In this document: positions 19,569-40,637 of the stretch, piece by piece
Position numbering within the stretch: position 1 is the stretch's first letter
How the letters are laid out: each line of letters starts with the position of its first letter
Origin: Elusimicrobia bacterium RIFOXYA2_FULL_47_53
GTDB lineage: Bacteria > Elusimicrobiota > Endomicrobiia > Endomicrobiales > XYA2-FULL-47-53
NCBI GenBank assembly: GCA_001800315.1
Contig: MGVE01000008.1
Span: forward strand, 254,977-318,976
Direction: 5' to 3'
Length of the DNA: 64,000 nucleotides
Notes under the pieces: model-generated
Seen by the model: the letters and a program-made list of their open reading frames with translations, nothing else
What the model was told of the DNA's origin: nothing
Database searches by the model: none
Translations under genes and position numbers: made by a program

Positions 19569-19581
19569 TATTTAGAATTGT

Positions 19582-19724
19582 GTCAATTGAAAAACCCTAA
19601 AGAATGCCCTGTCATTGCGATCTCCCGCAGGGAGAGAAGCAATCTCGCTTTTTCGTCGGAAACGACGAGATTGCTTCGTCGTTTCACTCCTCGCAAAGAC
19701 GGCCCGAAAGATTTTTCAATTGAC
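19582..19724. mobile_element. MITE-like palindromic element with 13-bp terminal inverted repeats
   Basis: The ends are GTCAATTGAAAAA (19582-19594) and its exact reverse complement (19712-19724). The inside is largely palindromic, with GAAGCAATCTCG and CGAGATTGCTTC arms around a GTCATTGCGA / TCGCAAAGAC core. It is about 143 bases long and carries no protein gene. A half-copy of the same end is seen at 46050-46063, and AGTCAATTGAAAAA/GACTCAAATT pieces occur near 41894. Confidence 0.75.
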
Positions 19725-19816
19725 TCAAATTACAAAACAGGTTTGTCATGCCGGAAATCTGTTGTCCGGCATCCACAACAAAGCCGTTTATGAATGACTT
19801 TTTGAAAAGGTTATAA

Positions 19817-37378: not shown

Positions 37379-38176
37379 ATGTCGGTTCTTGAACTTAAAG
37401 ATATCAGTTTCGGCTATTCCGATAAAAAGGTAGTTGAAGCTGTTTCGCTCACCCTTGAAGCGGGGGATTTCACCTGCCTCATAGGGCCGAACGGAGCCGG
37501 CAAAACAACTCTTTTTAAGATTATTTCGGGAACACTAAAACCATGGAGCGGGCAAATACTCTACGGAGGCGCGGACACCGCGCTTATTTCAAGTAAAACG
37601 CTGGCAAAGGAAATTGCCGTAATGCCCCAGCTGCTTGAAGCCTACTTTCCATTTTCCGTGGAAGATTTCGTAATGATGGGCAGGTTTCCGCACCGGAACC
37701 GCTGGCAGCCGCCGGCGAAGCTGGATATCGCCTCGGTTGAAACAGCTATTGAACTCTGCGACCTTTCATCTCTAAAGCGGCGGCCGATAAACGAGCTTTC
37801 CGGAGGGGAACGCCAGCGCGCCATGCTCGCCCAGGCTCTCGCGCAGGACCCTAAACTCCTTCTGCTGGACGAACCGACGGCGCACCTTGACATAGGCCAT
37901 CAGTGCGCTATACTTGATTTAATAAGAAAGCTTAACCGTGAAAACGGCCTGACTGTCCTCTCGGTTCTACACGATCTAAACCTTGCCAGCGAATACAGTT
38001 CAAAAATGATTCTCCTGGACAAAGGCGCCGTTCATTCCACCGGCGCTCCCGGAGAAGTTTTGACTTACAAAAATATTGAAGCGATATATAAGACCGTGGT
38101 GGTAGTAAGAGACAACCCGATGACATCCAAACCGCATATTTTCGCGGTTTCGCAGGATAACCTGAAAAAGAAGTAA
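37379..38176 (+). CDS. btuD: Corrinoid ABC transporter ATP-binding protein (BtuD-like)
   Basis: The product is 265 residues with GPNGAGKTTLFK (Walker A), LSGGERQRAMLAQALAQ (signature), LLLDEPTAHLD (Walker B) and a switch His in VLHDLNLA. Together with the neighbouring permease and binding protein it makes a BtuCDF importer. Its stop codon at 38174-38176 is immediately followed by the 5' strand of the next cobalamin riboswitch. Confidence 0.88.
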   Translation: MSVLELKDISFGYSDKKVVEAVSLTLEAGDFTCLIGPNGAGKTTLFKIISGTLKPWSGQILYGGADTALISSKTLAKEIAVMPQLLEAYFPFSVEDFVMMGRFPHRNRWQPPAKLDIASVETAIELCDLSSLKRRPINELSGGERQRAMLAQALAQDPKLLLLDEPTAHLDIGHQCAILDLIRKLNRENGLTVLSVLHDLNLASEYSSKMILLDKGAVHSTGAPGEVLTYKNIEAIYKTVVVVRDNPMTSKPHIFAVSQDNLKKK

Positions 38177-38543
38177 CTGCCGGTAACGGGAAACCGGTTA
38201 AAATCCGGTGCAGCCCCGCTACTGTGACCTGTCCTTGAAGATTTGAGGACTATTTTAATGCCACTGCTTAACGCGGGAAGGTATTAAAAGAAGGCAAAGT
38301 TGGAAACCCTAAAATTGTTTTTGCGCTTGAAAGCGGTTCATAACAAGCCATTGCAGGATGGCGCGTTGTACCCGCTTTTAAAGCGAAAAAAAAAGTTTTG
38401 CCGCGAAACAAGGAAGCCGAGTCCGAGGATACTTAAAAAGTATCTGAGGCAAGGCTGACGAAGTTGCAGCGCAAAAATTATTTTTGCAGCTAAAATGGGG
38501 TACAACAAGCCATCCTAAAGGAAGCCAGGAGACCGGCCGGCAG
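38177..38543 (+). ncRNA. Cobalamin riboswitch of btuB with an internal insertion
   Basis: The core is canonical: ACGGGAAACCGGTTAAAATCCGGTGC, then CAGCCCCGCTACTGTGACC (38210-38228), GCCACTG and CGCGGGAAGG. The B12 box AAGCCAGGAGACCGGCC (38522-38538) lies about 240 bases further downstream than normal. CTGCCGG (38177-38183) and CCGGCAG (38537-38543) are exact complements and close the P1 stem, so both parts belong to one aptamer. The extra bases contain an inverted repeat (38355-38373 with 38498-38516). Hairpin CCAGC/GCTGG (38551-38565) follows. Confidence 0.85.
38355..38516. repeat. Inverted-repeat element inside the btuB riboswitch
   Basis: AGGATGGCGCGTTGTACCC (38355-38373) pairs with GGGTACAACAAGCCATCCT (38498-38516), matching at 17 of 19 positions. 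The interior holds further hairpins, such as GAGGATACTT/AGTATCTGAG near 38430-38455 and GCAAAAATTATTTTTGC near 38471. A direct repeat AACAAGCCAT occurs at 38342-38351 and 38504-38513. Confidence 0.75.
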
Positions 38544-38572
38544 AATAAAACCAGCATTGAGCTGGGATACTC

Positions 38573-38604
38573 GAGGGAGGCATACCGGTATGTCAACAAA
38601 ATAA
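38573..38604 (+). promoter_or_regulatory. Orphan ribosome-binding site and four-codon ORF after the btuB riboswitch
   Basis: GAGGGAGG (38573-38580) is followed at 9 bases by an ATG (38590) that opens a reading frame of only four codons before TAA (38602-38604). The ATG lies in a perfect palindrome CATACCGGTATG (38581-38592). A dispersed repeat begins immediately after, and the btuB start is 150 bases further on. The site may be the remains of the original translation start region or a tiny leader. Confidence 0.5.
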
Positions 38605-38740
38605 CCGTCGTTCCAGAATAACGACACAAAAGCCGTTGTTTACTTATAACTTACAACTTAAAACTTATAACTTGAAAAGTTGTCTGGAATCCGGAACAAT
38701 GGCGTTTCATCAATGTCTTTAGGAAACATAATTAAATCTA
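38605..38740. repeat. Composite dispersed repeat between riboswitch and btuB
   Basis: GTCGTTCCAGAATAACGAC, an AT-rich run of TTATAACTTACAACTTAAAA type, TTGTCTGGAATCCGGAACAATGG and CATCAATGTCTTTA are found in the same order or combination at 40942-41100, 47542-47600, 50285-50360 and 50993-51060. Confidence 0.8.
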
Positions 38741-38756
38741 ACTAATGGAGAGATCT

Positions 38757-40637
38757 ATGTATTCAAAAATAGTAAGCTGGCTTTCAATACTCTTGTTAAC
38801 GGTTTCAATTCCGCTTTTCGCTGATACGGACGGCTCGGTTTTCTTAAGCCTCACGCGAAAAGTCAGCAAACTCAAGGATATGCCCACGAATGTTTCCGTG
38901 ATCCCGTTTGAAAAAATCCAGGAATCAAAAGCAAAGACCGCGGCAGAAGTCCTGCAGAACAGCGCCTCATTAAATGTCGGCAGTTACGGAACCCTCGGAG
39001 CAAACCAGAATATCATAATAAGGGGCGCCGCTCCCGAGGAAGTCCTTGTGCTTATTGACGGAAGGAGAGCCAACGACCCGGCAATGGGGCTCATTGACTT
39101 AAGCACTCTTCCGGCCGAAAATATTGAAAGAGTGGAGATTATCAGGGGAGGCGCGTCGGCTATTTACGGAACCGGGGCTCTGGGCGGCGTGGTAAACATA
39201 ATTACAAGAAAACCCCAGCTGGAAACGCCGAAAACAAATATAGGTTTTTCAATGGGCAGTTTTAATACGCAGAAAACCGGCGTTGACTTTGAAATAAAAC
39301 GGGAAAAAACCTATGGTTTTCTGAGCGCCGCGCGGACTCTCTCCGACGGCTGGAGGCAGAACTCCGGCTTTGACGGCAGCAATTTCTTCGCGAGAATGGG
39401 CTATGACGCGGGCTCAGCCGGACAGATTGACCTCTCAGGCGCCTATTCAAGAAGCGACGCGGGCGTGCCGGGAATGGGCATACCACTGGCTCAATACGAC
39501 GGTTCCGCGGAAAAACTTGCCTCAACGCCTGACGCCAATCAAAAAGTAAACAAGAGTTTCGGCAGGATTGACCACACGGTTAATCTCGGTGAAGATACTT
39601 TTAAAACATCCTTCCACGCTTCGCAGGATATCACTTTCTACAAAGTTCCCGCGTGGCTTCAGGATGACGAATACAAGTCATTCTCCTTCGGAGGCGAAAC
39701 CCAGTACCAGAGCTCGCTGGGCCTGACAACAGGCTTTGAGTGGTATGAAGAGCTTTACAAACAATATGACAATACAATGAGCGCTCTGGAAACCGACAGA
39801 AGCCGCGTTTCAGCCAATATCTTCGCCCAGCAGGAGATTAGAATAGCAAACCTGAGCGTAATACCAAGCGCGAGATACGACAATAACTCGGTATTCGGCA
39901 GCGTTTTCAGCCCGAGCATCGGGCTCGTTTATCAAGCAAATGAACTCCTGAAAATTTCGGCAAATTCCGGGAAGGCCTGGCGGGCTCCCACACTAAACGA
40001 ACTCTACTGGCCCAATGAGACCTCAAGCTTCTGGGGAACAACTTATATAACACAGGGCAACGCCACTCTCAAACCCGAAGAAGGAGTTGCTTCCGACTTC
40101 GGCGTTGAATACGGCAGCAATAAATTCAGCAATAAGGTTACCTTGTTTTATACCGAGAGCAGAGACCTGATTTCGTGGCAGCAGACGACAGACCCGGTCT
40201 CAAACTCTGTCACCACAATGCCTCAGAATATCGGCAGGGCAAAATCACAGGGCCTTGAATACGAACTGGGCCATAAAATAGCCGACGGCCTCTATCAAAC
40301 CATAAACTACACTCATACCTGGGCTATAGACGCGGATTCACTGCAGGTTCTGCCCTACAGGTCACCGAATATCATTAACTACGACCTCTCGTACATAGCG
40401 CCCTGGAATATGAAGCTTAACATCAACGGCAAATATGTATCGGCGACCCCGGTTTCAGGCGTAAATTCCCTGCCTGATTACACCCTTGTGGGATTAAAAG
40501 TATCGCAGAAAATAGCGGAGCTTGAGCTCTGGGTCGGCATTGACAACCTGCTTGATAAAATGTATCAGTCAAGAATAAACTACCCGCTTCCCGGCAGGAG
40601 TTACAACTTCGGCTTAAGCCTGAGGTTTATTGACTGA
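38757..40637 (+). CDS. btuB: TonB-dependent corrinoid receptor (BtuB-like)
   Basis: The product is 626 residues from ATG 38757, for which GGAGAG lies 7-10 bases upstream; ATG 38745 is in frame but overlaps that site. It has a signal peptide (SIPLFADT), then a plug domain (VIPFEKIQESKAKTAAEVLQ, NIIIRGAAPEEVLVLIDGRR, NIERVEIIRGGASAIYGTGA, GGVVNIITRK). A 22-strand barrel follows, ending NFGLSLRFID. It takes up corrinoids across the outer membrane using TonB energy. The cobalamin riboswitch upstream supports B12 as ligand. Confidence 0.92.
   Translation: MYSKIVSWLSILLLTVSIPLFADTDGSVFLSLTRKVSKLKDMPTNVSVIPFEKIQESKAKTAAEVLQNSASLNVGSYGTLGANQNIIIRGAAPEEVLVLIDGRRANDPAMGLIDLSTLPAENIERVEIIRGGASAIYGTGALGGVVNIITRKPQLETPKTNIGFSMGSFNTQKTGVDFEIKREKTYGFLSAARTLSDGWRQNSGFDGSNFFARMGYDAGSAGQIDLSGAYSRSDAGVPGMGIPLAQYDGSAEKLASTPDANQKVNKSFGRIDHTVNLGEDTFKTSFHASQDITFYKVPAWLQDDEYKSFSFGGETQYQSSLGLTTGFEWYEELYKQYDNTMSALETDRSRVSANIFAQQEIRIANLSVIPSARYDNNSVFGSVFSPSIGLVYQANELLKISANSGKAWRAPTLNELYWPNETSSFWGTTYITQGNATLKPEEGVASDFGVEYGSNKFSNKVTLFYTESRDLISWQQTTDPVSNSVTTMPQNIGRAKSQGLEYELGHKIADGLYQTINYTHTWAIDADSLQVLPYRSPNIINYDLSYIAPWNMKLNINGKYVSATPVSGVNSLPDYTLVGLKVSQKIAELELWVGIDNLLDKMYQSRINYPLPGRSYNFGLSLRFID

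Follow-up and report, generated by a model that had tools for sequence, protein, structure and literature searches.

In the leader of a btuB-type gene, the aptamer core and the B12 box of a cobalamin riboswitch stand far apart, which raises the question of what lies between them and whether the RNA could still act as a switch. The locus belongs to the 64,000-nt stretch of DNA analyzed here (the window), part of contig C8 of a 2.41-Mb genome whose assembly comprises 20 contigs and contains many short repeats. The riboswitch sits among B12 transport genes, with a CobS homologue, a periplasmic binding protein, a FecCD permease and an ABC ATPase upstream and a TonB-dependent receptor downstream, and given this B12 uptake locus we treated the receptor as BtuB. 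We consider, with a probability of roughly 0.75, that this riboswitch was invaded at its length-variable P6 region by a MITE-like element and that the aptamer probably still folds, binds corrinoid, and controls btuB.

Scanning with the Rfam cobalamin model gave a single RF00174 match that spans the insert and scores above the gathering threshold (31.5 bits), with no second match anywhere in the genome. No complete aptamer was found that dispenses with the box at 38520; to reach the B12 box from the P7 stem, cmscan had to allow for over 200 additional bases. The original prediction of a near-canonical core and B12 box, closed across the whole span by a P1 stem of CTGCCGG and CCGGCAG, held at each point: core and box were conserved and near-consensus in the RF00174 alignment, with AGCCAGGAGACC complete, and both P1 strands were located (Table 1). 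Over 48 nt, the aptamer core and the riboswitch of the relative G005 shared 90% identity, and a hairpin similar to the optional one in the P6 accessory arm was seen, by eye, in the relative G002. A GGG also occurs at the candidate L13 position in the relatives G004 and G005. An arrangement of two tandem aptamers was ruled out, as there is a single core and a single B12 box. P1 begins with the base next to the stop codon of the ABC ATPase (38174-38176; window 38174-38177), so that the aptamer occupies the spacer from the very end of the preceding uptake gene.

The spacing is abnormal. From P7 (GGGAAGG) to the B12 box we counted 242 nt, compared to 20 to 52 nt in relatives (26 riboswitches, median 27 nt), in line with the earlier estimate of an unusual gap of about 240 bases. 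The extra sequence, approximately 221 nt, falls between P7 and the box. Deleting 38300-38520 in silico leaves a gap of 21 nt, a size typical of relatives, and AAAG is found on both sides of the insert; as signs of insertion, read from the sequence, these two features are suggestive only. Cobalamin riboswitches are known to differ in their P6 accessory region (PMC9600662), and several relatives carry extra small stems there, with gaps of 41 to 52 nt. Among relatives, neither the 29 riboswitch loci nor the 29 btuB loci contained the element itself, save for one weak match (21 bits) ahead of the G066 btuB gene (L081), where no riboswitch was detected. A scan of GTDB contigs with BtuB found no relatives.

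Table 1. Features of the riboswitch, its insert and the downstream gene (window coordinates)
Feature	Position	Strand	Evidence
Cobalamin riboswitch RF00174, including insert	38164..38555	+	cmscan 47.5 bits, E 8.7e-9
P1 5' strand, CTGCCGG	38177..38183	+	sequence; pairing probability 0.7-1.0 with insert present
Aptamer core, GGGAAACCGG..AAATCCGG..GCAGCCCCGCTACTG	38188..38224	+	near-consensus in RF00174 alignment
Optional hairpin GTCCTTGAAGATTTGAGGAC, P6 accessory arm	38231..38250	+	pairing probability 0.99-1.0
P7-type stem, TTTTAATGCCACTGC..GCGGGAAGGTATTAAAA, intact	38253..38289	+	inverted repeat I6; pairing probability 0.7-1.0
AAAG, possible left 4-nt target duplication (weak)	38296..38299	+	sequence
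Decayed right-half copy of element	38297..38351	+	against 38461-38513: 42/56 columns identical
Complete hairpin mobile-like element, 162 nt	38355..38516	+	terminal inverted repeat 19 bp, 17 matches
Conserved interior of element family	38379..38500	+	model R1 (this copy excluded), 76 bits, E 8.1e-18
AAAG, possible right 4-nt target duplication (weak)	38517..38520	+	sequence
B12 box, AAGCCAGGAGACCGG	38522..38536	+	RF00174 alignment
P1 3' strand, CCGGCAG	38537..38543	+	sequence and partition-function folding
Candidate L13 GAGGGAGG, could kiss C-rich L5 (GCCCC)	38574..38581	+	inferred from sequence by inspection
btuB-type TonB-dependent receptor	38757..40637	+	Pfam Plug, TonB_dep_Rec_b-barrel; start 38757 likely, GGAGAG upstream

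All the repeats announced for the insert, namely a 19-bp inverted repeat with 17 matches, nested hairpins and a 10-bp direct repeat, were present. The inverted repeat forms the ends of a complete element, with AGGATGGCGCGTTGTACCC (38355-38373) matching GGGTACAACAAGCCATCCT (38498-38516) at 17 of 19 bp. The element's right half recurs upstream as a decayed copy, 55 nt long and about 75 to 81% identical to it, whose alignment score of 25 was equaled in none of 1,000 shuffles (mean 9.4, sd 1.9). The 10-bp direct repeat, AACAAGCCAT at 38342 and 38504, is part of this half-copy duplication, which the original prediction had missed. The insert has a folding energy of -76.9 kcal/mol compared to -54.1 kcal/mol for dinucleotide shuffles (z -5.4; 0 of 200 as low). 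In partition-function folding, P1 and P7 kept high pairing probabilities with the insert present and were hardly altered by it, while the closing helix beside the B12 box, of only three pairs (CCU/AGG), had a predicted probability of 0.2 or less, which was low with or without the insert.

Whether the insert has homologues elsewhere depended on the query that was used. Plain BLAST of the insert against its own genome returned itself and chance matches only, which pointed to no homologue, and other Rfam families gave nothing above chance for the insert; there is no Rfam model for this family. The BLAST result was overturned because copies from relatives, used as queries, found diverged homologues. 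A DNA search of the phylum with the riboswitch as query recovered, besides riboswitch cores, stretches resembling 38382-38501 in G005, G339 (two places), and G202, and with the G339 copy as query a dispersed family emerged in the window's own genome, comprising about ten copies of 165 bp (one shorter) of the form GAGTCAATTGAAAAA...TTTTTCAACTGACTC, plus many partial copies. The terminal inverted repeats GAGTCAATTGAAAAA.. and ..TTTTTCAACTGACTC were present in ten of these copies, and six of the nine examined were flanked by exact 5-bp duplications, e.g., AACTT, AAATT, AATTT, and ATATT. Since its copies are dispersed and carry target duplications, the family is mobile. For the terminal motif we counted 157 occurrences in the genome, compared to 24 for a reversed control pattern. 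A covariance model (R1), built from 14 copies elsewhere and none from the window, matched the riboswitch insert at 76 bits, the runner-up in the window scoring 14.6 bits, and, across 340 genomes of the phylum Elusimicrobiota, detected the family in 87. The insert thus belongs to this dispersed family, in keeping with its earlier description as mobile-like.

The copy in the riboswitch is at best 61% identical to any known copy, and about 52% identical to the copies that share its genome; no direct source of it was seen among them. From these identities it appears to be a diverged lone member of its subfamily, either an old insertion or one from a different subfamily. Its flanks show the AAAG on both sides only, with no clear target duplication, and the left border is eroded by the half copy.

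Several further features of the family were seen around its copies. In pairs of terminal repeats up to about 660 bp apart, read by eye, no transposase was found, and no autonomous relative bearing one turned up. Near other copies Rfam finds tRNAs only; in related genomes, tRNA genes lie directly beside some copies (L091:510-632, L242, and possibly others), the G005 copy is flanked by two tRNAs, and a copy in G003 adjoins one. The vicinity of tRNAs is perhaps a preferred target region of the family. Within the window, 19579-19727 and the stretch from 46049 onward share the terminal repeats TGTGTCAATTG and TGAGTCAATTG and have a different interior, of the ..GCGAGGAGTGCAACGACG..CAATCTCG.. type. 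It seems that in this genome terminal repeats and interiors can be swapped as modules.

Across 47 copies, all 20 modeled pairs of the hairpin change on both sides, 96.6% of the cells being paired compared to 70% in shuffles, although these counts are biased towards the structure since the alignment was fitted to it. Sliding the partners abolished the covariation signal, and a MAFFT alignment of 14 copies agreed, with 15 of the 20 pairs covarying. Conversion between the arms of an inverted repeat could also produce covariation. Between the covarying helices, an unpaired GCGA opposite GCAG is conserved (model R1, alignment A3), and the terminal repeats differ between genomes. The conserved unpaired nucleotides argue for selection on the folded form, as RNA or DNA. 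One could go further and regard the family as a phylum-wide mobile module whose mismatch-bearing hairpin is selected as folded RNA or single-stranded DNA, with the copy here adopted as a working peripheral arm of the B12 riboswitch and the same spot taking unrelated palindromes in relatives (G003, perhaps G007); this fuller account we regard as speculative and improbable as a whole.

Related leaders were found upstream of btuB in the sister family (L095:954-1127 in G003 and L096:663-1191 in G007). In both, the 5' half of a cobalamin-type core can be recognized; a long P1-like stem closes it, and a long palindrome follows at the equivalent place. In G003 the palindrome is a dispersed repeat with eleven further places in that genome, and in G007 the hairpin is single copy and encloses an ORF. 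The two leaders gave no Rfam match, and no B12 box was evident in them. As leads, not proof, they hint that this riboswitch spot may repeatedly accept hairpin elements.

An arm of this length might also have arisen in place, by lengthening of the P6 accessory stem and without mobile origin. The natural variability of the P6 region, the small extra stems of several relatives, and the failure of BLAST to find another copy of the insert in the genome would all fit such an origin, which is nevertheless very improbable, as it is contradicted by the match to a model of dispersed elements from which this copy was excluded (E 8e-18) and by the dispersal of the matching family with target duplications. 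It is at least as hard to credit that the assembly joined a repeat into the riboswitch by error. Short repeats are abundant in this 20-contig assembly, but the copy in the riboswitch occurs nowhere else in the genome and has diverged from all others, and on either side the riboswitch runs on as it should, into P1 and the B12 box. We infer that the hairpin reached this site by insertion, not inheritance.

The main rival is that insertion broke the switch, leaving a pseudo-riboswitch and a btuB expressed without corrinoid control. The sequence joining P7 to the box is disrupted, with just the weakly predicted three-pair helix left to close it, and the leader 3' of the riboswitch is filled by further dispersed repeats. 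Against this stand the core, P1, P7, and B12 box, which are near-consensus though divergence between the two copies within the insert has reached about a fifth to a quarter, a difference that suggests selection on the core; the pairing probabilities of P1 and P7, which the insert hardly shifts; and the candidate L13 with its GGG, which is still there. Loss of function is, on balance, rather unlikely, and a tolerated insertion in a still-working riboswitch is probably the best reading of the folding predictions and conservation.

Under tolerated insertion, a palindromic, non-autonomous MITE-like element of the phylum-dispersed family would have entered the btuB cobalamin riboswitch downstream of P7 and ahead of the B12 box, in the P6 accessory region, whose length varies naturally, and what remains of it would be one and a half copies, folded into a long hairpin of its own. 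As such a closed hairpin keeps the ends of the flanking helices near each other, the aptamer can probably still fold. The proposal that the insert may be tolerated as an extended helix is supported by these predictions, since the insert folds by itself in a length-variable region and the predicted pairing of P1 and P7 is kept. The interrupted aptamer would then bind corrinoid and control btuB through L5-L13.

Farther downstream, two more dispersed repeats, which have 43 further matches in the genome, make up 38618-38725 of the btuB leader, so that the expression platform region is repeat-derived too. A promoter scan found nothing exceeding shuffles, and a terminator scan gave six stems compared to 1.1 expected; the candidate on the coding strand, the optional P6 hairpin followed by TATTTTAATG, was not credible as a terminator.

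If true, this would be a natural ligand-binding RNA that survived a transposon insertion because host site and guest are both hairpins, and it would suggest one way in which riboswitches could acquire peripheral domains. A further implication is that searches for riboswitches may overlook aptamers that a repeat interrupts, or give them a wrong score. The analysis further exposes a structured, apparently uncatalogued repeat family of Elusimicrobiota with strong covariation. The open-licence literature searched held no relevant case of a riboswitch hosting a MITE, which, given the limited scope of that search, is weak evidence of novelty.

Compared to RF00174 (clan CL00101), the riboswitch shares the core, P1, P7-type stem, B12 box, btuB context, and a score above the gathering threshold, and differs by the mobile-type hairpin between P7 and the box. 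It is a known riboswitch class in a new form, hosting a member of an apparently undescribed structured MITE-like repeat family. REP/BIME- and Correia-type elements are palindromes of intergenic regions that can come to lie in transcribed leaders, where they fold as part of the RNA. The family described here may resemble them in these respects; its copies differ in carrying 5-bp duplications. Bacterial MITEs, as reviewed in PMC10969869, are non-autonomous elements with terminal inverted repeats, and by that account the present family is alike in being short, non-coding, multicopy, and dispersed, with terminal inverted repeats and 5-bp target duplications, while it differs in its conserved, strongly covarying hairpin interior, found across the phylum, and in terminal repeats that vary between genomes.
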